From assembly GCA_035530615.1 (NCBI GenBank), contig DATKUL010000002.1, positions 62,001 through 126,000 of the forward strand: 64,000 bases of DNA. Direction: 5' to 3'. The notes beneath the pieces were generated by a model that saw nothing but the letters and a program-made list of their open reading frames with translations, was not told the origin of the DNA and did not search any database. Each line of letters starts with the position of its first letter. Position 1 is the stretch's first letter. Made by a program: the position numbers and the translations under genes. Source of the stretch: Candidatus Paceibacterota bacterium. GTDB lineage: Bacteria > Actinomycetota > Actinomycetes > Nanopelagicales > Nanopelagicaceae. This document shows positions 343 through 36,654 of this stretch, piece by piece.

Positions 343-2010
343 ATGGCTGAGTTTATTTACACAATGCGAAAGACGCGAAAAGCGCACGGCGACAAGGTTA
401 TTTTGGATGATGTGACCCTCTCTTTTCTCCCAGGGGCCAAGATTGGTGTTGTCGGACCCAACGGTGCAGGAAAATCCACTGTTTTGCAGATTATGGCTGG
501 CTTGCAGCAACCCTCAAATGGTGAAGCATTCCTGTCACCTGGATATTCGGTGGGAATTCTTCTGCAAGAACCGCCACTCAATGATGAGAAAAATGTTTTG
601 GAGAATGTGCAAGAGGGCGTTGCCGAGACAATGGCTCTCATGGCCCGTTTCAATGAAGTTAGTGAAGAGATGGCGAACCCAGATGCCGACTACGACAAAT
701 TACTTACTGAGATGGGAAACTTGCAAGAGCAACTGGATCACCGGAATGCTTGGGATCTCGACTCACAATTAGAGCAGGCAATGGATGCCCTTCGTTGTCC
801 ACCACCAGACGCCGATGTCAAAGTACTTTCCGGTGGAGAACGACGTCGCGTGGCACTGTGCAAGTTGCTACTTCAGCAACCCGATCTTCTTCTTCTGGAC
901 GAACCTACCAACCACCTTGATGCGGAATCAGTGCAGTGGCTCGAGCAGCATTTGAGCAAGTATCCAGGAACCGTTGTGGCAATTACCCACGATAGATACT
1001 TTCTCGACAACGTTGCGCAGTGGATTCTCGAATTAGACCGCGGTCGCGCATATCCATATGAAGGTAACTACTCAACGTATTTGGAAACAAAATCAACGCG
1101 TTTGAAGATCGAAGGACAGAAGGATGCCAAGCGCGTAAAACGCCTCACTGAAGAACTCGAATGGGTGCGGCAGAACTCGAAGGGCCGACAGGCCAAATCA
1201 AAGGCGCGTCTTGCTCGGTATGAAGAAATGGCATCCGAAGCCGACAAGATGCGCAAACTCGATTTTGAAGAGATCCAGATTCCACCCGGGCCGCGTCTTG
1301 GAAATATTGTGGTTGAGGTTGACCATCTCTCCAAGGGTTTTGGTGAAAGGCTTTTGGTCGACGATCTTTCCTTCTCACTTCCTCGCAACGGCATCGTCGG
1401 TGTCATCGGTCCAAACGGTGCGGGCAAGACAACTCTCTTTAAGATGATGTTGGGTGTTGAAGAGCCAGATTCGGGTTCTATTAAAATGGGCGAAACTGTG
1501 AAGATTTCCTATGTCGACCAGTCTCGTGCAGGTATCGATCCAAAGAAGACACTCTGGGAAGTTGTTTCCGACGGGTTGGATTACATCAAAGTGGGACTGG
1601 TTGAAATGCCCAGTCGTGCTTATGTCTCCGCATTTGGATTTAAAGGTCCAGATCAGCAGAAACAGGCCGGCGTTCTTTCCGGCGGCGAGCGAAATCGTTT
1701 GAACTTGGCGTTGACTTTGAAGATGGGCGGCAACTTGCTCCTTCTCGATGAGCCAACAAACGACCTGGATGTTGAAACGCTAGGGTCGCTTGAAAATGCA
1801 CTACTCGAATTTCCTGGTTGTGCAGTGGTTATTTCCCACGATCGTTGGTTCCTTGACCGGGTGGCCACGCATATCTTGGCTTACGAAGGCGATTCACAAT
1901 GGTTCTGGTTCGAAGGCAACTTTGAATCGTATGAGAAGAATAAGATCGAACGGCTCGGTGTTGATGCAGCTCGCCCACACCGCGTCACGTATAGAAAGCT
2001 GACGCGCTAA
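343..2010 (+). CDS. ettA: Energy-dependent translational throttle protein EttA (ABC-F ATPase)
   Basis: 555 aa, the usual length for EttA. There are two ABC ATPase domains in one chain and no membrane segment, as expected for an ABC-F protein that binds the ribosomal E site and couples translation to ATP level. Walker A motifs GPNGAGKST (about residue 38) and GPNGAGKTT (about 356), signatures LSGGERRR (about 162) and LSGGERNR (about 445), and Walker B motifs LLLLDEPTNHLD and LLLLDEPTNDLD are all visible. The charged linker between the domains is typical. ATG at 343 is preceded by AAGG. The stop overlaps the thioesterase start as TAATG, so the two are co-translated. Confidence 0.95.
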   Translation: MAEFIYTMRKTRKAHGDKVILDDVTLSFLPGAKIGVVGPNGAGKSTVLQIMAGLQQPSNGEAFLSPGYSVGILLQEPPLNDEKNVLENVQEGVAETMALMARFNEVSEEMANPDADYDKLLTEMGNLQEQLDHRNAWDLDSQLEQAMDALRCPPPDADVKVLSGGERRRVALCKLLLQQPDLLLLDEPTNHLDAESVQWLEQHLSKYPGTVVAITHDRYFLDNVAQWILELDRGRAYPYEGNYSTYLETKSTRLKIEGQKDAKRVKRLTEELEWVRQNSKGRQAKSKARLARYEEMASEADKMRKLDFEEIQIPPGPRLGNIVVEVDHLSKGFGERLLVDDLSFSLPRNGIVGVIGPNGAGKTTLFKMMLGVEEPDSGSIKMGETVKISYVDQSRAGIDPKKTLWEVVSDGLDYIKVGLVEMPSRAYVSAFGFKGPDQQKQAGVLSGGERNRLNLALTLKMGGNLLLLDEPTNDLDVETLGSLENALLEFPGCAVVISHDRWFLDRVATHILAYEGDSQWFWFEGNFESYEKNKIERLGVDAARPHRVTYRKLTR

Positions 2011-2426
2011 TGATTCACCATAGTTCAATTGAAGTTCGTTGGGATGACTTGGATGCATTTGGCCATGCAAATAACGCAGCGTACTTAACTTTTGTGCAAG
2101 AGGCCAGGAACGATTTCATATGGTACTCGCGCAAGGCTGCGGGGAAACGCGAGCTCTTAGGAGACATGGTCGTCGCACGAGCTGAAGTGGATTATTTGGA
2201 GCCGATCTACGATGGCGGAATCGAGATTGATGTAGCAATCACCGTTGGCCGTCTAGGGAATTCTTCATTCGAACTCAATTATGTAATTTCCCATCAAGGG
2301 ATGATTCACGCCCGCGCCAAGACAGTGCAAGTTGGCGTATCTATGGAGACAAAGAAGTCTCGCCCACTCACTGAAGAAGAGCGAAGCTTTTTGTCAGATT
2401 ACTTAGAGGTTTCCGCGGAAGGATAA
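2010..2426 (+). CDS. Acyl-CoA thioesterase, 4HBT hotdog family
   Basis: 138 aa. The N-terminal pattern VRWDDLDAFGHANNAAYL is the hallmark of 4-hydroxybenzoyl-CoA-type thioesterases, with the Asp of DAFGH as the likely catalytic residue. A single hotdog domain fills the protein, which probably acts as a cytosolic multimer hydrolysing acyl-CoA; the acyl group cannot be read from sequence. It overlaps ettA by one base (TAATG) and ends 2 bases before the glucosidase gene, so it is the middle gene of an ettA-thioesterase-glucosidase-globin unit. A thioesterase next to an ABC-F gene is, from memory, common in actinobacteria. Confidence 0.85.
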   Translation: MIHHSSIEVRWDDLDAFGHANNAAYLTFVQEARNDFIWYSRKAAGKRELLGDMVVARAEVDYLEPIYDGGIEIDVAITVGRLGNSSFELNYVISHQGMIHARAKTVQVGVSMETKKSRPLTEEERSFLSDYLEVSAEG

Positions 2427-2428
2427 TA

Positions 2429-4120
2429 ATGACAGACCAGAATTCACTCCCGGCACGTTCGGAGCGACCATGGTGGCGAGATGCAGTCACGTATCAGATT
2501 TATATCCGTTCTTTCGCTGACTCCAATGGCGATGGCAAAGGTGACGTAGATGGAATTCGTTCGCGACTTCCGTATCTCAAGGGATTGGGCATTGATGCAA
2601 TTTGGATTACTCCTTGGTATCCATCACCGCAGAAGGATCATGGATATGACGTTGCCGACTACATGGATATCGAACCTGATTATGGCACGCTGGCAAATGC
2701 GCAAGCACTTATCAAAGAGGCGCACGAACTCGGAATAAGAATCCTCGTCGACATTGTTCCAAATCATTCAAGTGATCTGCATGAGTGGTTTCAAGCAGCC
2801 CTTAAAGCAGCCCCAGGATCGAAAGAGCGAAATCGATATTGGTTTAAGGACGGTAAGGGCGAGTATGGCGAACTTCCGCCCAATAATTGGACCTCCGTTT
2901 TTGGTGGTCCCGCGTGGGAGCGAGTTATTGAGGCTGATGGAAAGCCGGGGCAGTGGTACTTACATCTTTTTGCAGTAGAGCAACCGGATTTCAATTGGGA
3001 GAACGAGGAAGTCCGAGCTTATTTCGAGGATGTCCTTAAATTTTGGCTCGATCGCGGAGTAGATGGATTCCGAATTGACGTGGCTCACGGAATGGTGAAA
3101 TTGGCTGGTCTGCCCGATATCGTGGCACCAGATCCAACATCGGAGATGCTTGCACCCGAGAACCGTCCATTCTGGGATCAGGAGGGCGTGCACGAGATCT
3201 ACCGTCAGTGGCGCAAGATTCTTGATTCGTACCCCGATCACCGCATGGCGGTGGCTGAAGCATGGGTCAGTCCGTCCTCACGCATTGCCCGCTATCTTCG
3301 CCCCGACGAATTGATGAATTCATTTAACTTTGATTTTCTCAGCTCTGCGTGGAAACCCGATGAGTTGAAGAAGATGATCAACCATTCTCTAGAAGCACTT
3401 GCAGAAGTTGGCGCACCTTCATCATGGGTCTTCAATAATCACGATGTTGTTCGCTCGGTTGACCGTTTCGATTTGGGACTCATTGCCGGGACCGGAAGTA
3501 CAACCCGTGAGCGCCACGGGGATGAAAAGCAATTCAACATTGTCCGCGGAACTCAAAGAGCCCGTGCCGGTGCACTTCTGATGCTGGCGCTTCCCGGTGG
3601 CGCATACATTTATCAAGGTGAAGAGTTGGCACTTCCGGAAGCCCGAGAAATTCCGGAAGCCCGCCTCACCGATCCACGCTGGTCACTCAGTGAGTACACC
3701 GATCGGGGCCGAGATGGTTGTCGCGTTCCTCTCCCATGGAAGAGGGATTCTTCGGGTGCTTTTGGATTCTCAAATAATTTTAATCTCACTCCCGACGAAG
3801 CATGGCTTCCACAGAGCGCATCCTGGGGATCGTTCTCCGTAGAAGTTCAAGATGGAGATCCTGCGTCTACTTTGACGATGTATCGCAAAGCCTTGTCCAT
3901 TCGTCACGAAGAAGAGGGTTTGGGCGATGGACCGATGACGTGGATAGAAGCAGGTCCTTCAGTGGTGGCATTTTCGCGTCCAGGTAATTTCGCTTGTTAT
4001 GTGAATTTCGGAGCACCATGTGATTTACCGTTGGGAGCTGACTTACTTCTGTCGAGTGGACCACTTGATGGAATTAAGTTGCCGACGGATACAGCAGTGT
4101 GGTTGCGACTCTCGAAATGA
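2429..4120 (+). CDS. GH13 alpha-glucosidase
   Basis: 563 aa glycoside hydrolase of family 13 (oligo-1,6-glucosidase/alpha-glucosidase type). The (beta/alpha)8 barrel signatures are visible in order: [10 protein letters not shown] (about residue 110), GFRIDVAHG with the nucleophile Asp (about 216), AVAEAW with the acid Glu (about 276), and FNNHDVVRS with the transition-state Asp (about 338). No signal peptide, so it probably acts in the cytosol on imported malto-oligosaccharides or sucrose-like sugars; linkage preference is not readable. ATG at 2429 follows GGAAGGAT. The stop overlaps the globin ATG at 4117. Confidence 0.9.
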
Positions 4121-5692: not shown

Positions 5693-8234
5693 CCTGCGCA
5701 TCCTTAACTTGTGCTTTCAAGGCACGAGCCATCGCATCTCGGTTTTCCGAAACGATGCGTCGCAAACCGCCAGGGGCCTCTTTACCAATATGCGCCAGCC
5801 ATGCCTCTGTTGCATCCAGAGTCGATTGAGCCACAACATATGTTGGGTATAGACCAACCACGATATTGGAAGCCATCTCGTAGGTCTCTGAATTCCAAAC
5901 CTCAAGAATGATGTCGAAATAGCGCTCGACGTAAGGCACGAGGAGTTCGCGCTGCGAAGGACGTTGGAATCCGCGAATGGTCGAAAGTTGAATGTGGTTA
6001 CTCAACTTCTCTTTAGTTGCAGCTTCAAATGCACGTGCTTTTGCTTCCGCCGTTGGGAAAGCGGCGCGCGCTAGCGCGGCTGAACGAAGGCCATTTGCGG
6101 TGTTGTCCTGCGCAAGTTCTGCTTCGACATCTTCGATAGTTGCGAGGCCTCGCTCCACGAGGGCATTGAGGAAATGCCAACGAAGATCGGCATCCACAAC
6201 CAAGCCCTTGACCTCACCGTTGAGCATCCTGCGAATGCGAGCACCTTGTTCGGGAGTGCTTGCCGAACTTGCAAGTGCGCGGGAGTAGGAAAGCTGAAGA
6301 TCGCTTCCAGCTTCGGCTCTATTCAGAAGTGACTCAATGCCATTTGCGAGTTGAACGCGCAGTCCTTGGCGGTGTGATTCTGCGGCAAAAAGTTCTACCG
6401 CGGTCTCGAGTTGTGTCAGGGTCATTCCAACTACTGCCACATCTGGCTCACCAGCAAGTGCGTTGATCGCCATGGGGACATAATCGCTGGCAGCAAGTTC
6501 GCCATCGCGGAGCATGTCCCATGCAGCCGACCAACAGAGCGCGCGGCTTAAGGGATCCTGGATAACGCCGAGGTGGTTCTTGAGAGTCTCGACTGATCGC
6601 TCATCAAAGCGAATCTTTCCGTAGGAGAGATCTTGATCATTGATGAGTACGAGGTCGGCTAACTCCTCACCCGAAAGTTCGGGTACGGAAGTCGAGGCGC
6701 CGAAAACATCAAGTTCAACGGCCCTTCGACGAACAAGGGCGCCATCTCTTAGGTCATACAGACCAATAGCCATGCGGTGTGGACGAAGCTCGGTGGATCC
6801 CACTGGCATCAAGGGAGCTTCCTGGAGGATAGAGACCGAGGAGTAATTCTCTCCGGAAATTTCTAACGCAGGACGGAAGGTGTTTACTCCCGCGGTCTTG
6901 AGCCACGTCGCAATCCACGGGGTCATATCGCGACCGCTGGATGCCTCTAACTCGACGACTAGATCGTTGAGAGTTGTATTTCCCCACGCGTGCTTTGCGA
7001 AGTACTTGCGCAGTCCTTCAACGAATTCATTCTTTCCAACGTAGGAAACCATCTGCTGCAAGACGGATGCACCCTTTGCATAGGTAATTCCATCAAAGTT
7101 GGTTCGTACTGCTTCCATATCGTGCATATCAACAACAATGGGGTGCGTTGATGAAAGTTGGTCTTGACGGTAGGCCCAGTTCTTTCTTTCGGCATTGAAG
7201 ACGGTCCAAGAATTGGTAAAACGTGTCGCCTTCTCAAGCGTGTAGTACGAAGCCCACTCGGCGAATGACTCATTGAGCCAGAGGTCATCCCACCATGTCA
7301 TAGTGACGAGATCGCCGAACCACATGTGTGCCATTTCGTGAAGAATGACGTTGGCGCGCCAGTTGTAGTTCTTGTCGGTCACCTTGCTGCGGAAGACGAA
7401 GTAATCTTCTGCGAAAGTCACGCAACCAACATTCTCCATCGCGCCGGCATTGAATTCGGCGACCGCTAGTTGGTCGTATTTATCAAAGGGATATGCCAGG
7501 CCAAACTCCTTCTCGTAGAAGGCGAAGCCTTGCTTGGTGATCTTGAAGATTTCATCCGAGTCCATATGGGGAGCAAGTGACTTACGGCAGAAGAGGCCAA
7601 GCGGAACTGTCTTCTCTCCAACGTAAACATCATCAACCCGGTGGTACGAACCCGCGACTACGGCAGTCAGGTAAGTGGAAATCACGGGTGTGGTTGTAAA
7701 GACCCAGCGCTTTTTCTGGTCTCCGACCTCGGTTACCGATTCGATTGGGTTATTTGAAATTACTTCCCAGTGCGCCGGGACAAGAGTTGTAATTGAGAAG
7801 GTGGCTTTGAGGTCTGGTTGGTCAAAACATGGAAATGTTCGTCGCGCATCCGCCGTCTCGTGCTGGCTGTAGAGGTAGACCTCGCCATCGGCAGGGTCGA
7901 CGAAGCGATGTAGACCTTCTCCGGATTTTGAATAGATTGCCTCAACGCTCAAAACTAATTCGTTCTCAGCGGCAACTGCAGGAATAAGGATCGACTCTCC
8001 GTCGTAATCAGAAACATCAAGCAACTTGCCATTGAGAGTCGCGGATATGACACTCTTACCGACCGCATCAACAAAAGTCGGGGAGCCAGGCTTTAAGCCA
8101 GAGAACTTGATCACGGCATTTGATGTGAAAGTTTCAGTCCCCGAAGTCAGATCCAGATCGATGACATAACTATGGACCTTGATAACGCTGGCGCGCTCTT
8201 TGGCTTCGGCTCGGGTGAGGTTGACTCCTGGCAC
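5682..8234 (-). CDS. pepN: Aminopeptidase N (M1 zinc metallopeptidase)
   Basis: 850 aa, the usual length. The substrate-binding motif GAMEN is near residue 263 and the zinc motif HEMAHMWFGD near 299, with the third ligand Glu in LWLNESFAEW near 322. A C-terminal helical ERAP1-like domain follows. It removes N-terminal residues from peptides in the cytosol and probably finishes degradation after Clp. GTG at 8234 is supported by AAGGAG six bases upstream. The gene is convergent with the HNH gene and divergent from trmB. Confidence 0.95.
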   Translation of the reverse strand: MPGVNLTRAEAKERASVIKVHSYVIDLDLTSGTETFTSNAVIKFSGLKPGSPTFVDAVGKSVISATLNGKLLDVSDYDGESILIPAVAAENELVLSVEAIYSKSGEGLHRFVDPADGEVYLYSQHETADARRTFPCFDQPDLKATFSITTLVPAHWEVISNNPIESVTEVGDQKKRWVFTTTPVISTYLTAVVAGSYHRVDDVYVGEKTVPLGLFCRKSLAPHMDSDEIFKITKQGFAFYEKEFGLAYPFDKYDQLAVAEFNAGAMENVGCVTFAEDYFVFRSKVTDKNYNWRANVILHEMAHMWFGDLVTMTWWDDLWLNESFAEWASYYTLEKATRFTNSWTVFNAERKNWAYRQDQLSSTHPIVVDMHDMEAVRTNFDGITYAKGASVLQQMVSYVGKNEFVEGLRKYFAKHAWGNTTLNDLVVELEASSGRDMTPWIATWLKTAGVNTFRPALEISGENYSSVSILQEAPLMPVGSTELRPHRMAIGLYDLRDGALVRRRAVELDVFGASTSVPELSGEELADLVLINDQDLSYGKIRFDERSVETLKNHLGVIQDPLSRALCWSAAWDMLRDGELAASDYVPMAINALAGEPDVAVVGMTLTQLETAVELFAAESHRQGLRVQLANGIESLLNRAEAGSDLQLSYSRALASSASTPEQGARIRRMLNGEVKGLVVDADLRWHFLNALVERGLATIEDVEAELAQDNTANGLRSAALARAAFPTAEAKARAFEAATKEKLSNHIQLSTIRGFQRPSQRELLVPYVERYFDIILEVWNSETYEMASNIVVGLYPTYVVAQSTLDATEAWLAHIGKEAPGGLRRIVSENRDAMARALKAQVKDAQVKQ

Positions 8235-8299
8235 GTTGCACTCCTTATAGGCGTTGACGGTGATTACGTTGTTCTATCCAATCATGAAAGGCTGGGGTC

Positions 8300-8959
8300 G
8301 TGGACACCCCGACGATCAAGAGTTTCAAGCTCCGCGGAACTCGCATAACCGCTGCCCAAGAGGCGGCACGAGAGCGTTTGTGGGCGGTTTACGGCGTTGA
8401 TTTCATTCCAGAGAGGTTGACTCTCGCATCCCTCTTCCCTACCGCCCAAAAGGTCGTGGTCGAGATCGGATTTGGAATGGGCGAGGCGACTATTGAAGTC
8501 GCAAAAGGGTTTCCGGAGACCGGGTTCCTTGCGGTCGATGTGCACCAACCAGGCATTGGGAAATTATTGGCATTGATTGAAGAATCTGGACTAACCAATG
8601 TCCGTGTGATGGATGAGGATGCGCACCTGATTCTTGGATCCATGATTGATAATGAATCCCTAGACGGCATCCATCTCTTTTTCCCCGATCCTTGGCCCAA
8701 AACTCGCCATCACAAACGTCGGATCGTGAACGAGCAATTCATTTCTCTGATTCACTCCAAATTGCAACCAGGTGGAACATTTCACGTTGCCACTGATTGG
8801 CATCCCTACGCGGAGTGGATAAAGGATTGCTTGGCAAATTCAAATTTATTTGTTGGAGGAGAGGTAGACCGACCGGAATGGCGTCCGATCACTAGATTTG
8901 AAGGTCAAGGAATTCGCAAAGCACATCGGGTTGCGGATCTGATTTACAAAAAAATTTAG
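8300..8959 (+). CDS. trmB: tRNA (guanine-N7-)-methyltransferase TrmB
   Basis: 219 aa. The SAM-binding motif is VVEIGFGMGEATIEVA, and the family signature FFPDPWPKTRHHKRRIV is followed by FHVATDWHPYAEW. The enzyme makes m7G46 in tRNAs using S-adenosylmethionine. GTG at 8300 follows AAAGG. The last four bases overlap the convergent rpiB stop. Confidence 0.94.
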   Translation: MDTPTIKSFKLRGTRITAAQEAARERLWAVYGVDFIPERLTLASLFPTAQKVVVEIGFGMGEATIEVAKGFPETGFLAVDVHQPGIGKLLALIEESGLTNVRVMDEDAHLILGSMIDNESLDGIHLFFPDPWPKTRHHKRRIVNEQFISLIHSKLQPGGTFHVATDWHPYAEWIKDCLANSNLFVGGEVDRPEWRPITRFEGQGIRKAHRVADLIYKKI

Positions 8960-31540: not shown

Positions 31541-31620
31541 TGAGGTTGGTCAACATGGTTGACCTCCAATAGCCGGGCTACCCCGTTGTGTTATTGCTTC
31601 TATCTCGGCAGGATGGGCGG

Positions 31621-32838
31621 ATGTCAAAGGCGCGCCCTGCAGGCTGGAATACGGTTCGTGTCATCGCTTCGGCGCGTGCGCTTTCGTTTCTCGGTGATGA
31701 ACTCGCGATCTTCGCTCTTCTGCTCCGCGAGAAACATCATGGCGGCGGAGCCTTCTCTATTGCTGTTATTTTGGCGGCAGGGCATCTACCTCTGATCTTG
31801 CTTTCGCCTTGGGCGGGAACTGTTGCTGACCGTGTGCCAGTGCGTCGCCTGGCTCCTTTCGTCAACATCGGGCAAGCGGTCTTTGCTGCCCTACTTGCAT
31901 TTAACACACCACTGTTTGTCTCACTCGGGCTCATAACTTTGATTGGAGCCGGCCAAGCGTTCACCGCTCCTGCGTGGTCTGCCACATTGCCAGAGATCGT
32001 TGGCAAGGATGCTCTACCGCAGGCTCTTTCGCTTATGCAGGCGTTGTATGCAATAGCCGGAATGGCCGGCCCGGCGATAGCCGGGCTCATGGTGAGCCAG
32101 TTCGGTTACGTAACGCCAATGCTCGCCAATGCTGCGACATTTGCGTTGCTTGCCATTGTTCCTGCATTTCTAACTCTGCCGTTTCATGCTCGTGAGAGAG
32201 GTCCGCGGCAGCGCGGAGATGTGTGGGCCGGATTGCAGATTGTGCAGCGCGAACCTGTCATTCGAGCTCTTGCCATTTTGATGTTCAGTCTCGTAGTTGC
32301 GCTGGGGGCGTACAACGTGGCTGAATTATTTTTCGCACTTGACGATCTTCATGCGTCAACATTCATTTATGGTCTTACTGCCTCAGTGTTTGCTGCCGGG
32401 CAGTTCATCGCTGCACTCATCAACGAACGGCGCGAAGTAGATCAGGCTCGGCTACCCGCAAACATCATTGTGGGAACTCTAATGCTTGGCCTTGCCGTAC
32501 TACTAACCGGCTGTGCTTGGCACTGGGCATTACTTCTGCCTACCGCTGCACTGGCAGGTGCAGGCGGCAGCACATTCACGGCTTACGGATTCGCACTAAT
32601 CGTTCATCGATCACCTGACGAGAGTCGTGCTCGTGTTATTTCAGTGGTTCAAGCCGCAATTTCTACTGGCAATCTCTCTGCGCTGGCAATAGCGGGTCTC
32701 GTCATTTCTCTCATCGGTCCGCGAACCACAATTTTGCTTAGTGGCGTTGCTTCCATTCTTGTAGTTGCCGTGTTCGCACCGGCACTACTCCGTTCTGTAG
32801 TTCAAAACCCAATCGGAGAAATCAATCCGCCTTTTTGA
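31621..32838 (+). CDS. MFS transporter
   Basis: 405 aa from ATG 31621, preceded by AGGATGGGCGG; an upstream in-frame start at 31588 would add residues unlike the family. About twelve hydrophobic segments and the motif GTVADRVPVRRLAP indicate the MFS_3 exporter group, as for the gene at 18372. Substrate unknown. It separates the shape operon from the inserted XRE/unknown pair. Confidence 0.83.
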   Translation: MSKARPAGWNTVRVIASARALSFLGDELAIFALLLREKHHGGGAFSIAVILAAGHLPLILLSPWAGTVADRVPVRRLAPFVNIGQAVFAALLAFNTPLFVSLGLITLIGAGQAFTAPAWSATLPEIVGKDALPQALSLMQALYAIAGMAGPAIAGLMVSQFGYVTPMLANAATFALLAIVPAFLTLPFHARERGPRQRGDVWAGLQIVQREPVIRALAILMFSLVVALGAYNVAELFFALDDLHASTFIYGLTASVFAAGQFIAALINERREVDQARLPANIIVGTLMLGLAVLLTGCAWHWALLLPTAALAGAGGSTFTAYGFALIVHRSPDESRARVISVVQAAISTGNLSALAIAGLVISLIGPRTTILLSGVASILVVAVFAPALLRSVVQNPIGEINPPF

Positions 32839-32900
32839 GTCTTAGCGCATCGATCTCATGTGCTTGTTGTTTAGTCAATCGAGAGCTTCCATTGTCTTCC

Positions 32901-33698
32901 TCATTTTGACTTTGCCACCCGTGTCTTTTTTCTAGTGGGTCCTTCCTGATCGGTACTCGTCGCAGGAAGTAGTACTTCCAAAGCTTTCCCGTTTTCTAAT
33001 ATGAGTCTTACGGTAGGGCTGGCCTTTCTAGGTGACTGTATGTCCGTTATTTTCTGTCCAATCGCCTCCGAGAAACTTGCATCTAACACTGGCACGCGAA
33101 GTGAATCCATCCTCGCGAGTGCGTAGCGCAACTGCATTCGAGCAATATCCGACAAACTAGTTAGTCGCTGAGTAAGGGTGAGGATATCAACTGTGGATCG
33201 GTAACTGAGGTCAACAACCGTTCGGCTTATTGCAAGGTTCGTCTCGTCTTGCAGAGGGAAATAACCTAGCATCGCACCGCGGAGGACATTGTTGGTGAAG
33301 TTCTGGTCTCCTCCATTAGGTATTTGGTCAACATCCACTAGTGGGGCGACGAGAACAAACCGATCTAGTTCAGGGTTCTTCTCTGCGATCTCAAAGGCTT
33401 CTTCCGAGGTGAGGCTCGGATCTGATTTCATTAGGTTTCTAGCAGACCTGTTGAGTTCTTTATCCAACTGGCAGTCGTGGCTAAGAACCATCACTAACGA
33501 TGAGCCCCCGATTGCTCCCAACCCAGAGTCTCCTGATTTGGACGTACTTAGTTGGCTCTGTATCGTGTCGATTCCCGCCCATGCTGGTGGTATGAAAATG
33601 TCTTGTAAGGCAGTCAGTCGGACAACGCCACTGCCGAGGACGATATCTCCCTGTTGTAGTGGCCGAGTGTCATCCGTTACATAGATACCGTTGGTCAC
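32901..33698 (-). CDS. Unknown protein with SHDC motif, paired with XRE regulator
   Basis: 265 aa, no signal peptide or membrane helix. The visible landmarks are LQQGDIVLG near the N-terminus, a central VMVLSHDCQLDKE, and a basic end (RKKTRVAKSK). The His-Asp-Cys cluster could be catalytic or metal-binding, but I cannot name the family. GTG 33698 lies 14 bases after the XRE gene, so the two form an operon controlled by the palindrome at 34171-34203. This arrangement resembles toxin-antitoxin or phage-related two-gene units, but function is unassigned. Confidence 0.7.
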   Translation of the reverse strand: MTNGIYVTDDTRPLQQGDIVLGSGVVRLTALQDIFIPPAWAGIDTIQSQLSTSKSGDSGLGAIGGSSLVMVLSHDCQLDKELNRSARNLMKSDPSLTSEEAFEIAEKNPELDRFVLVAPLVDVDQIPNGGDQNFTNNVLRGAMLGYFPLQDETNLAISRTVVDLSYRSTVDILTLTQRLTSLSDIARMQLRYALARMDSLRVPVLDASFSEAIGQKITDIQSPRKASPTVRLILENGKALEVLLPATSTDQEGPTRKKTRVAKSK

Positions 33699-33712
33699 TA
33701 TTGGGATGGTAC

Positions 33713-34159
33713 TTACTTTACTCGGGCCGACAATGGTCGGATCCGACGTCGCGTGGTAGCAGGCTCCTCTAGGTCCGCAAAGTTGACGGAATCGGTCATA
33801 TCCAAACTCTCCTCTTGGCGAAGCACGTGAGATCCCCGACTGGTCGGGACTTTATGGGTTCTGACTGTCCCCGCCTCTATGGCTGCGAGAACTCGTTCTA
33901 GTGGGGTTGGTGTGCTTTTAGTTACTGGTTCTACCTTGAATATCTCATCAGGGCCAACCTTAAACTCCGTGCACAGTTTTAGGAGTGTCTCATACCGAAT
34001 ACTTGAGGTTTCTCCCCGCTCGATCCTGCCCAAGTCATCCTGGCGCATGCCAACCCTGGCGGCGACCTCACTGAGTGTGCGAGCGCCCCGAAGTTCCCTC
34101 ACTCGGACCACCAAGCAGTTCTCTCCTGCAACTTCGGCTACTACCGTCTCGGTACCCAT
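33713..34159 (-). CDS. XRE-family transcriptional regulator
   Basis: 148 aa from ATG 34159, with AAGGAG five bases upstream. The helix-turn-helix is at about residues 20-75: VRELRGARTLSEVAARVGMR then QDDLGRIERGETSSIRYETL and LKLCTEFKVGPDEIFKVEPV. The C-terminal half is low-complexity and basic. It probably represses its own promoter by binding the long palindrome that overlaps the -10 box, and so controls the unknown protein gene downstream. The open frame extends to 34441 but looks non-coding there. Confidence 0.8.
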   Translation of the reverse strand: MGTETVVAEVAGENCLVVRVRELRGARTLSEVAARVGMRQDDLGRIERGETSSIRYETLLKLCTEFKVGPDEIFKVEPVTKSTPTPLERVLAAIEAGTVRTHKVPTSRGSHVLRQEESLDMTDSVNFADLEEPATTRRRIRPLSARVK

Positions 34160-34482
34160 GTCATCTCCTTCGCCTATAGCCGTTACAGTAACGGCTATAG
34201 GCGGTAAAGACAAGCATCTGAGAGGACTTCTTAGATGACACCTTCCGGGTCTCGGCTGCGGCTGGGTCACAACTATTGCTTGAACCGGATGTCTCCCCTC
34301 CTCCGAACTGGGGTTTTGGGCGTTGTGTTGGGCTTTGACCCGCCTTTCTGCCATACTTAGCCCAAAGTTCAGCGCGGCTCGCGATTTCATCGCGGTCACC
34401 GCCAGCGCGAACTCAACAAAGATTTGCTCGGAAGCGAGCATGAGCGCGTTTTTTTGAACGCATAGAGGATTTGGTACTAGAT
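34160..34482. other. Intergenic region between XRE gene and RNase E/G gene
   Basis: The first 55 bases hold the XRE promoter and palindrome (separate entry). From 34214 to 34482 I see no gene. A small inverted repeat GCGTT/AACGC with a T-rich loop lies at 34446-34461, 22 bases before the RNase gene, and may be the end of a transcript or a leader hairpin. Confidence 0.4.
34171..34213 (-). promoter_or_regulatory. Promoter with 33-bp perfect palindrome upstream of the XRE gene
   Basis: The 16-base arm CGCCTATAGCCGTTAC (34171-34186) is mirrored exactly by 34188-34203 around one central base. On the minus strand TTGTCT (34213-34208) and TACTGT (34190-34185) are 17 bp apart and form a promoter whose -10 box and start point lie inside the palindrome. 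This is an autorepressor layout. Confidence 0.75.
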
Positions 34483-36654
34483 ATGGCTATTGAGCCAAAA
34501 ACGCCGCGCAAGCGTGCGGCTAAGAAAGCTACCGCTGTAGTTTCAACCGATACGGGTGAAATAGCGACAAAAAAGACCCCCGTTAAGAAGAGCGCTGCGG
34601 CGATTCCCGTTCCCATGTTCCAGGCAGCCCCGGTGGCGCAGGCGAAACCGGCCCGTGTTTCCCGAGCCAAGGCTGCAACCGAGGAAAGCGCCCCAGAGAG
34701 CGTCGTCAAGAAGGCCACGTCACGGAAGAAAGCGGTTCCAGCCGTCATTCCCGTTGCAACTGAGCCGGAAGCGGCAAGTTCAGCCGACTCAGAAGGGCGC
34801 GGTCGCCGCCGTCGCAGAGGCGGCCGCGGTCGCCGCCGTCCAAACGAGTTAGATGTTGAGTCCACCGAATCTGATGTTGGAGATTCCGAGTCCGAAAAAA
34901 GCGCCACCCACCGACGACGTCGACGCCGTTCATCCACTGATGGAGTCACACCGGGTGAGACCGTAGAAGAAGATGGCGTCATCACAGTTGTAAAGGTGCG
35001 TGAACCGCGCGAGCCTCGTGAGGTTCGCGAACGTCCAGCCCGTGGTGCAGCCCGCGATCGAGCACCTCGTCGTACTCGTGAAGCGCGAAGTGAATATCGC
35101 GAGCCGTATCGCAAGCGCGGAACAATCATTACCGAAGGCGAATTCCTGGCACGTCGTGAGAATGTCGACCGTGAGATGTTGGTCCGTCAAATAGGAGATC
35201 GCACGCAGATCTGCGTCATCGAAGACAAGGTCATGGTTGAGCACTACGTCAACCGTCACACCAACGTTTCATACGTCGGCAATGTTTATTTGGGTCGCGT
35301 ACAGAATGTTCTTCCCAGCATGGAAGCGGCATTCGTCGATATTGGAAAGGGCCGCAACGCAGTTCTTTATGCAGCTGAAGTGAATTGGGATGCTGCTGGC
35401 ATTTCTGACTCACAACCGCGCAAAATTGAAATGGTTTTGAAGACCGGACAACCAGTGCTCGTCCAGGTGACGAAGGATCCGATCGGACAGAAAGGCGCTC
35501 GCCTAACAAGTCAGATCAGCCTTCCCGGTCGATATTTGGTCTACGTGCCAGGTGGTGGAATGAGCGGTATCAGCCGTCGACTTCCGGAACCAGAGCGCGC
35601 ACGATTAAAAACAATCCTCAAAGCCGTTGTTCCGGATGAAGCGGGCGTCATTGTCCGCACCGCGGCAGAAGGAACAAGCGATGCGGAAATCGAAGCAGAT
35701 GTAGCGCGACTGAAAACCCAGTGGGATGACATCGTTGCAAAATCTGAAAACCCAAATTTTCATGCACCAGCACTTCTTTATTCAGAGCCTGATCTCGCAG
35801 TCCGTGTTATTCGCGATATTTTCAATGAAGATTTCCGCAAGCTCACCATTCAAGGAAATGATGCATGGGAAGAGATCAACAACTATCTCGGCTTCATTGC
35901 ACCAGAGCTCACTTCAAAGATTGAGAAGTGGACGGGTTTGGGAGATCTCTTCACCGATTATCGAGTAGATGAGCAATTGGCCAAAGCATTTGATCGCAAG
36001 GTTTATCTACCTTCAGGTGGATCTCTGGTTATCGATCGCACGGAGGCAATGATTGTTATCGACGTCAACACCGGAAAATTTATCGGTAAGGGCGGAAGCC
36101 TGGAAGAGACGGTTACCAAGAACAACTTGGAAGCAGCCGAAGAAATTTCTCGACAACTGCGCCTGCGTGACCTCGGTGGCATTATCGTCATCGACTTCAT
36201 CGACATGATTCTCGAATCTAACCGCGAGTTGGTTCTGCGTCGCCTTGTCGAATGTCTCGGGCGTGATCGCACCAAGCATCAGGTTGCCGAAGTGACTTCG
36301 CTCGGTCTGGTTCAGATGACTCGCAAGCGAGTTGGGCAAGGTCTCATTGAAGCCTTCTCGACCCCGTGCGAAACTTGCGGCGGCCGCGGAATACATATTC
36401 AGACCGATCCCGTGAAGGCTCGTCCATCTCTTCCCTTTGGAGGACAGAATGGCCTGGGCGATGTTCATGATGCCATTGAGCATGAAGTTACTGAGATGGA
36501 AGAGGTCGAACTTGAGGTGGAGTCGGGTGAGGATTACGAAGCCTCCGGGGAGAGCGAAACTGCGGAAATGCCACATGTTGTGACTCCAGAACCAGCAAAG
36601 GGACGACGCCGTCGTCGCGCGGCAAGTTCGGGAGTAATCACACCAGGCGCCTAA
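34483..36654 (+). CDS. rne: Ribonuclease E/G
   Basis: 723 aa from ATG 34483; a TTG at 34471 is possible. The N-terminal 200 residues are disordered and basic, with Arg tracts (GRGRRRRRGGRGRRRP) as in actinobacterial RNase E. Then comes the S1 RNA-binding domain (VGNVYLGRVQNVLPSMEAAF) and the catalytic core with VIDVNTGKFIGKG and GGIIVIDFIDM holding the metal-binding Asp residues. The zinc-link is CETCGGRG. It matures rRNA and starts mRNA decay. The position before rplU-rpmA-obgE is typical. Confidence 0.92.
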   Translation: MAIEPKTPRKRAAKKATAVVSTDTGEIATKKTPVKKSAAAIPVPMFQAAPVAQAKPARVSRAKAATEESAPESVVKKATSRKKAVPAVIPVATEPEAASSADSEGRGRRRRRGGRGRRRPNELDVESTESDVGDSESEKSATHRRRRRRSSTDGVTPGETVEEDGVITVVKVREPREPREVRERPARGAARDRAPRRTREARSEYREPYRKRGTIITEGEFLARRENVDREMLVRQIGDRTQICVIEDKVMVEHYVNRHTNVSYVGNVYLGRVQNVLPSMEAAFVDIGKGRNAVLYAAEVNWDAAGISDSQPRKIEMVLKTGQPVLVQVTKDPIGQKGARLTSQISLPGRYLVYVPGGGMSGISRRLPEPERARLKTILKAVVPDEAGVIVRTAAEGTSDAEIEADVARLKTQWDDIVAKSENPNFHAPALLYSEPDLAVRVIRDIFNEDFRKLTIQGNDAWEEINNYLGFIAPELTSKIEKWTGLGDLFTDYRVDEQLAKAFDRKVYLPSGGSLVIDRTEAMIVIDVNTGKFIGKGGSLEETVTKNNLEAAEEISRQLRLRDLGGIIVIDFIDMILESNRELVLRRLVECLGRDRTKHQVAEVTSLGLVQMTRKRVGQGLIEAFSTPCETCGGRGIHIQTDPVKARPSLPFGGQNGLGDVHDAIEHEVTEMEEVELEVESGEDYEASGESETAEMPHVVTPEPAKGRRRRRAASSGVITPGA

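Follow-up and report, generated by a model that had tools for sequence, protein, structure and literature searches.

An XRE-paired protein family with a predicted MazF/CcdB-type fold, standing alone or heading restriction-modification operons

A small insertion in the window, the whole stretch of 64,000 nucleotides of actinobacterial DNA analysed here, carries an XRE/Cro-type regulator gene followed by the gene of a 265-residue protein, SHDC, with the motif VLSHDCQLDKE (Ser-His-Asp-Cys). The predicted fold of SHDC is that of the MazF, Kid and CcdB toxins, and we lean slightly towards reading the pair as a self-contained, self-repressed defence module of the toxin-antitoxin kind, in which SHDC would be the putatively toxic effector of MazF/CcdB fold. 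In acidimicrobial relatives the pair, together with a TIGR04255 gene, heads type I or type III restriction-modification (R-M) operons. The analysis offers a predicted fold and a testable function for a family that is unnamed in Pfam, NCBIfam, PHROG and PADLOC; it would extend the MazF/CcdB toxin fold by a branch with an XRE partner and altered catalysis, and it ties the family to R-M operons in which the R-M part varies by locus while the front genes stay. The features concerned are the following.

31541-34318, no strand: insertion of about 2.8 kb (approximate extent) between rodA and rne, holding the MFS, SHDC and XRE genes
31588-32838, plus strand: MFS transporter gene (PF07690, 122.7 bits), in the insertion; at most a putative member of the module
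32901-33698, minus strand: SHDC gene, 265 residues; predicted effector of MazF/CcdB fold (MazF-like span about 12-202, tail 203-265)
33713-34159, minus strand: XRE/Cro-type helix-turn-helix (HTH) gene, 148 residues; probable repressor and antitoxin-like partner
34171-34203, no strand: perfect palindrome of 33 bp, probable XRE operator; core CCNNTACNGTANNGG at 34180-34194

The gene pair, its palindrome and its insertion site

Both reading frames lie on the minus strand where the initial annotation had placed a two-gene unit of an XRE regulator and a 265-residue partner with a His-Asp-Cys motif. XRE comes first and SHDC follows head to tail, with 14 nucleotides between them. The ATG of the XRE gene is preceded by AAGGAG, within a longer reading frame open to 34441, and SHDC starts with GTG, the first common start codon past the upstream stop. 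The naming of the regulator was confirmed by three HTH families in Pfam, all above their cut-offs (PF13560, 31.8 bits; PF13443, 30.8 bits; PF01381, 30.4 bits). The same protein weakly matched the PADLOC model of R-M controller proteins (E 3.6e-4, 18.9 bits).

The palindrome is as perfect as first described, with two 16-nucleotide arms that are 100% complementary around a 1-nucleotide centre, 11 nucleotides ahead of the XRE ATG. Its supposed overlap with a -10 box and start point was not confirmed, a sigma-70 consensus scan of 32600-34600 finding no promoter. No other inverted repeat with arms of at least 12 nucleotides was found over the 2.1 kb scanned, and a search of the genome for the 25-bp core of the palindrome, with up to three mismatches allowed, gave a single site.

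A paralogous SHDC gene (C2:748038-748775, 34% identity) stands directly behind another XRE gene, which it overlaps by 4 bases; over residues 4-94, the window's XRE protein is 41% identical to this second XRE protein (locus L023). The neighbours of the paralogue are a HipA-family gene and a PDC-S27-like ATPase gene (L023, 9503-12722). Upstream of the XRE gene, the window reads TATAGCCGTTACTGTAACGGCTATA and the paralogous locus TATAGCCCAGTACAGTATGGGGTATA. Common to both stretches is the core CCNNTACNGTANNGG, which has two sites in the 2,162,394-base genome, namely the XRE promoters of the two XRE-SHDC pairs; the control, the same pattern read backwards, has 10 matches per strand. Outside its own genome, the core was found among 120 sequence records only ahead of the XRE gene of L042, a two-gene locus (L032 is the same place). 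At L040, the sequence just ahead of the XRE ATG is GCACAGTGCAGGG, in which both sides of the dyad are altered, as judged by eye. The confinement of CCNNTACNGTANNGG to the XRE promoters of its own genome and of L042 supports a role of the palindrome as an operator, with putative binding by this group of XRE proteins.

The insertion is delimited by the nearest relative, L045, whose similarity to the window breaks off close to where rodA ends (31540) and restarts at about 34319. RNase E/G was looked for in 31 genomes and found in 30. rodA lies upstream of rne at 17 of the 18 same-genus loci besides the window, the last (L061) having too little upstream sequence, and at these 18 loci the MFS, SHDC and XRE proteins had no tblastn match (E ≤ 1e-3). 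The three genes lie in one insertion, between two genes, rodA and rne, that adjoin each other in same-genus genomes. An insertion next to RNase E/G had been proposed from the start, and that part stands; the MFS gene, however, had been taken for the outer flank and lies inside the same insertion, whose true flanks are rodA and rne. In genome G266, the rodA-rne spacer carries two other small minus-strand genes (L046, 369-1405), at least one of them MarR-like by eye, on which account insertions may recur in this spacer.

Predicted fold of SHDC

By sequence, SHDC had been thought to belong to no nameable family. The profile search agreed with this: no match, to a known metabolic enzyme family or otherwise, was found in Pfam, NCBIfam, PHROG or PADLOC at E ≤ 1. 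It can nevertheless be placed by its predicted fold among MazF, Kid and CcdB. The family profile had no match among PDB chain sequences at E ≤ 10, PF02452 (MazF/PemK/Kid mRNA interferases) had none among 7 SHDC members at E ≤ 10, and hhalign gave a probability of 0.1-0.3% for the 13-row SHDC alignment against 25 PF02452 proteins. The Pfam matches TraH_2 (E 0.0031), MalQ_N and DarA_N, each found in one of the 7 members, were set aside.

We built an AlphaFold2 model from 13 family members (pLDDT 75.6, pTM 0.66; one of the five models, 60.5). When it was compared with the PDB by Foldseek, all of the 50 best of 594 matches were MazF-type (top E 2.1e-4, probability 1.00); 8 of the 594 reached E ≤ 0.001, and TM-scores were about 0.3 on the query, that is, the whole model, and 0.5-0.7 on the target. 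VIA-align 2 gave a similar picture, in that the 50 PDB entries among the matches listed were all MazF/Kid/CcdB-type toxins (Z 9.1-11.8). The best was 9g2g (Z 11.8, 108 residues aligned, 3.0 Å), and Staphylococcus aureus MazF (4mzm; Z 11.7, 3.0 Å) was aligned over 115 of 115 residues, CcdB (2vub; Z 10.8) over 101 of 101 and Kid (1m1f; Z 9.3) over 106 of 107. The first four viral structure matches were PemK/MazF-like phage proteins. SHDC is thus predicted to have the MazF/Kid/CcdB barrel fold, enlarged and with a C-terminal tail, a relation that rests on modelled structure, not on sequence. CcdB, of the same fold group, differs in having about 100 residues and is 13% identical to SHDC. Its partner is CcdA and its target gyrase.

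The resemblance to MazF covers SHDC residues 12-202. In a register inferred from secondary structure, strand 19-30 (QGDI) would correspond to the first MazF strand, strand 60-71, with the SHDC motif behind it, to the MazF strand that ends in SND, strand 114-122 to the next MazF strand and helix 184-200 to the last MazF helix. By eye, QGDI is comparable to RGEI or RGDI of MazF, and SHD to the SND of many MazF proteins. The MazF-like span would exceed MazF by about 75 residues, most of them in the first two loops, and is followed by a 63-residue tail, which makes a protein of 265 residues as against some 100-130 in the matched chains.

The two also differ in the residues expected to matter for catalysis. 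The catalytic residues of MazF-mt3 are Arg25 and Thr49, according to an excerpt of PMC11394972. At the positions of this Arg and Thr, by the secondary-structure register and short of a residue-level superposition, all 13 SHDC sequences have S/G/A and V/L then D/L/R; in 2 of the 13, an Arg occurs one residue before the presumed catalytic position. The usual catalytic Arg and Thr therefore appear to be replaced in SHDC, and MazF-type chemistry may be absent because these positions seem to carry other residues. Among the invariant residues of the family are Q16-G17-D18, R27, W40, D44, H74-D75-C76, K80-E81 and N83, as well as L111-D112-R113, P119, D163-L164, Y166, T169, D171 and R187.

As in MazF systems, SHDC is encoded in a two-gene operon with a DNA-binding partner upstream. 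The partner is of another kind, an XRE protein and no AbrB-, RHH- or PHD-type antitoxin; in an excerpt of PMC2701414, the partners named for MazF are AbrB, RHH, MazF/ccd, XF1863 and PHD, not Xre. A literature search for MazF with Xre or with R-M likewise found no such pair described in titles or abstract openings.

Relatives and their defence neighbours

The initial annotation had suggested looking for the same pair elsewhere, and it does recur, both as the divergent copy in the same genome and in relatives. Including the window and the paralogue, we count 23 loci, with apparent duplicates counted once (L003=L035, L004=L036, L006=L037, L010=L038 and L012=L116). An XRE gene was detected by tblastn directly upstream of SHDC at 22 of them, and the 23rd, L021, has an apparent C-terminal XRE remnant, as judged by eye. 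The XRE partner is backed by an HTH profile in the window, L004 and L042, and elsewhere by tblastn.

At 17 of the 23 loci, a TIGR04255 gene lies ahead of XRE (tblastn with the L003 protein), the exceptions being the window, the paralogue, L040, L042, L043 and L021. In these three-gene loci the TIGR04255 protein heads the operon (L003, 1393-2190, for example), and the protein of L004 scored 132.3 bits against a profile cut-off of 30. The best PDB matches of a TIGR04255 model in VIA-align were guanidino-kinase domains, weakly (Z ≤ 8.2), Foldseek gave no match for it at E ≤ 0.001, and the literature search found no paper on TIGR04255. The three-gene class has an inverted repeat of its own: TTCCCA-N10-TGGGAA stands just before the first gene at 7 of 16 loci, the other 9 having no exact repeat, and has no further match in the 162,874 bases of those loci. 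The seventeenth locus, L041, was excluded from this count, as its first gene is broken.

The family is rare. Within the host's own family it was found in 1 of 296 genomes, the genome of the window itself; whole-genome draws gave 3 of 396 for the phylum, 12 of 298 for one order and 8 of 395 for one class, where the draws overlap and the phylum draw takes in the window's genome. A genome-contig scan with exact peptide patterns returned 11 matches, of which 10 were true relatives, on contigs of Actinomycetes or Acidimicrobiales. L013 (Verrucomicrobia) was rejected, only 40 residues being matched, within an unrelated-looking 144-residue reading frame. No relative was found outside Actinomycetota, other phyla being covered by this one exact-pattern scan. 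The window's SHDC had no match at E ≤ 0.1 in 72,556 plasmid and 50,697 phage records, the SHDC of L003 had none at E ≤ 1 in the plasmid records, and three viral-contig scans found no relative. Rare in the draws and with gene-free sites in relatives, the XRE-SHDC pair is mobile and sporadic in distribution. At L020, the SHDC cluster lies between a TrwC-type relaxase (777-3227) and a phage-type integrase (7665-8846), an arrangement like that of an integrative conjugative element.

The SHDC frame is open over the matched span at 17 of the 23 loci and interrupted by a stop or frame change at six (L005, L010, L011, L022, L043 and L117), through decay or assembly error; at L021 and L012 it is open yet shortened. 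In a tree of 17 SHDC proteins, the window and L002 fall on long branches (75/66), so we do not claim the two-gene class as one clade.

Examining what follows SHDC revealed HsdM (type I), Mod (type III) or a remnant of either directly downstream at 10 of the 23 loci. An hsdM gene stands behind SHDC at L003 and L006, both with hsdR, and hsdS is full-length at L003 and a short match at L006; hsdM remnants are found at L039 and L005. The one locus with intact mod and res is L022, where SHDC is frame-shifted; mod starts behind SHDC at L007 and L009 and runs to the contig end, and mod remnants follow it at L004, L010 and L012. Profile matches were obtained for HsdM, HsdS and HsdR at L003/L035 and for Mod and Res at L022. 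At L003, the overlap is 4 bases between XRE and SHDC and 1 base between SHDC and HsdM; an SHDC-Mod overlap implied by the reading-frame ends at L022 was set aside because of the frame shift. L011 and L117 end at a contig edge. The remaining 11 loci had no R-M gene behind SHDC with the five R-M queries, by which unrelated R-M types would be missed. L040, L042 and the window, where no R-M gene was found next to XRE-SHDC with the queries used, are among these loci.

Matches to the Schlafen/AlbA_2 protein of L004 (PF04326) were found past the R-M genes or their remnants at L003, L004, L006 and L039; three of these are incomplete or truncated where the locus sequence ends. Since they sit behind differing R-M genes or remnants, the R-M part may be exchanged between constant flanks. 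Two loci without an R-M match have other defence genes nearby: L114 borders Hma (HmaA, 1628.6 bits; HmaB, 569.7 bits, farther along), and L042 has DrmB-like and methyltransferase-like proteins upstream (DISARM-like) and a NACHT protein downstream.

Neither PF02384 (N6_Mtase) nor PF01555 (N6_N4_Mtase) has a match in the window's genome, whereas control genomes were positive in 13 and 11 of 14 cases, respectively. The R-M link therefore does not hold in this genome, and the pair stands there without such enzymes.

Proposed function and alternatives

The toxin-antitoxin-like reading draws on the order of regulator first and effector second, on the pair's own palindrome, on its mobility and recurrence, and on the predicted toxin fold; the features of a type II system (a two-gene unit, a DNA-binding partner and a palindrome in front) are present. 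Counting against it are the lack of a profile link to MazF, the apparently replaced catalytic residues, the middling confidence of the model with its few strong Foldseek matches, the SHDC genes that are interrupted or shortened, the three-gene loci without an exact inverted repeat, and the missing R-M link in the window's genome. A role in defence is suggested by the R-M and other defence genes in the neighbourhood of the relatives. In such a module, XRE would bind the palindrome and repress the operon, and would also bind and restrain SHDC. Loss or titration of XRE, for example upon phage attack or loss of the island, would free SHDC, which could then halt the cell. It might do so as an RNase with a rewired catalytic site or, in the manner of CcdB, by attaching to an essential target. 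A candidate for the rewired site is the conserved set of His-Asp-Cys, Lys-Glu-Asn and Asp-Arg in place of the Arg and Thr of MazF. In the R-M operons of the acidimicrobial relatives, the pair might act as regulator, guard or addiction element of a DNA-based defence. A broader proposal would make SHDC a new MazF/CcdB branch, XRE-paired and with a rewired His-Asp-Cys site. It would form an exchangeable front part for several methylation-based defences (type I, type III, Hma and DISARM-like) and act there as a guard, killing or arresting the cell once restriction is disabled; elsewhere it would live as a standalone toxin-antitoxin pair. Taken whole, we consider this proposal unlikely.

The strongest competitor to the toxin-antitoxin-like module, albeit a somewhat unlikely one, is that SHDC is a non-toxic co-regulator or sensor of MazF fold with lost or altered catalysis that, together with XRE and where present TIGR04255, times the expression of R-M or defence genes like an elaborate controller-protein system. 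The apparent replacement of the MazF catalytic residues, the tight coupling of genes at L003 and the weak match of XRE to the PADLOC controller model all point this way, and the interrupted SHDC genes at 6 of 23 loci shifted weight from the module towards it. Controller (C) proteins of R-M systems indeed resemble the arrangement in relatives, with an XRE-type HTH gene before R-M and, in some, an inverted repeat before the operon. They differ in that a protein of a new family stands behind XRE here, at every locus, as follows from how the loci were found, and in that the pair also occurs without R-M. Against a co-regulator speak these standalone pairs in the window, L040 and L042, the lack of both methyltransferase families in the window's genome, and the invariant H, D, C, K, E, N and R residues, which suggest an active site.

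Alternatively, the pair could be an R-M backup, or guard, that stays inactive as long as the R-M complex is whole and is freed by a phage anti-restriction protein, a reading that we regard as quite unlikely. Its model is PrrC, an anticodon nuclease with an ABC region. In an excerpt of PMC2610378, PrrC is silenced by the type I R-M enzyme to which it is linked, and a phage anti-restriction factor activates it. As in PrrC-EcoprrI and RloC, where PrrC is linked to type I R-M in the same excerpt (PMC2610378), SHDC is so linked at L003 and L006, though not in the window's genome. At these two loci it stands with an open frame directly before hsdM, as it does before the start of mod at L007 and L009; elsewhere it precedes R-M remnants. 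Unlike PrrC, it has no Pfam match at E ≤ 1, so none to PrrC-type NTPase or anticodon-nuclease domains, and it can stand alone. Counting against a guard are such standalone pairs in a genome without PF02384 or PF01555 methyltransferase matches, and L022, where SHDC is frame-shifted despite intact mod and res. If the reading were true, SHDC would meet the same challenge as PrrC, the response to a phage that disarms the restriction enzyme, as a second solution unrelated to the first.

Finally, SHDC might serve metabolism or housekeeping as an ordinary enzyme controlled by a local repressor, with its MazF match a false lead from a small barrel. This would fit the middling model confidence and the lack of sequence similarity to MazF profiles, but is very improbable given a fold match that spans nearly all of MazF, a single superfamily for the 50 entries among the matches listed, no family match in four libraries, and a sporadic distribution in a defence context.

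Besides its SHDC genes, the window's genome encodes one PF02452 (MazF/PemK) homologue, at G000:C2:782354-782686 (L100).
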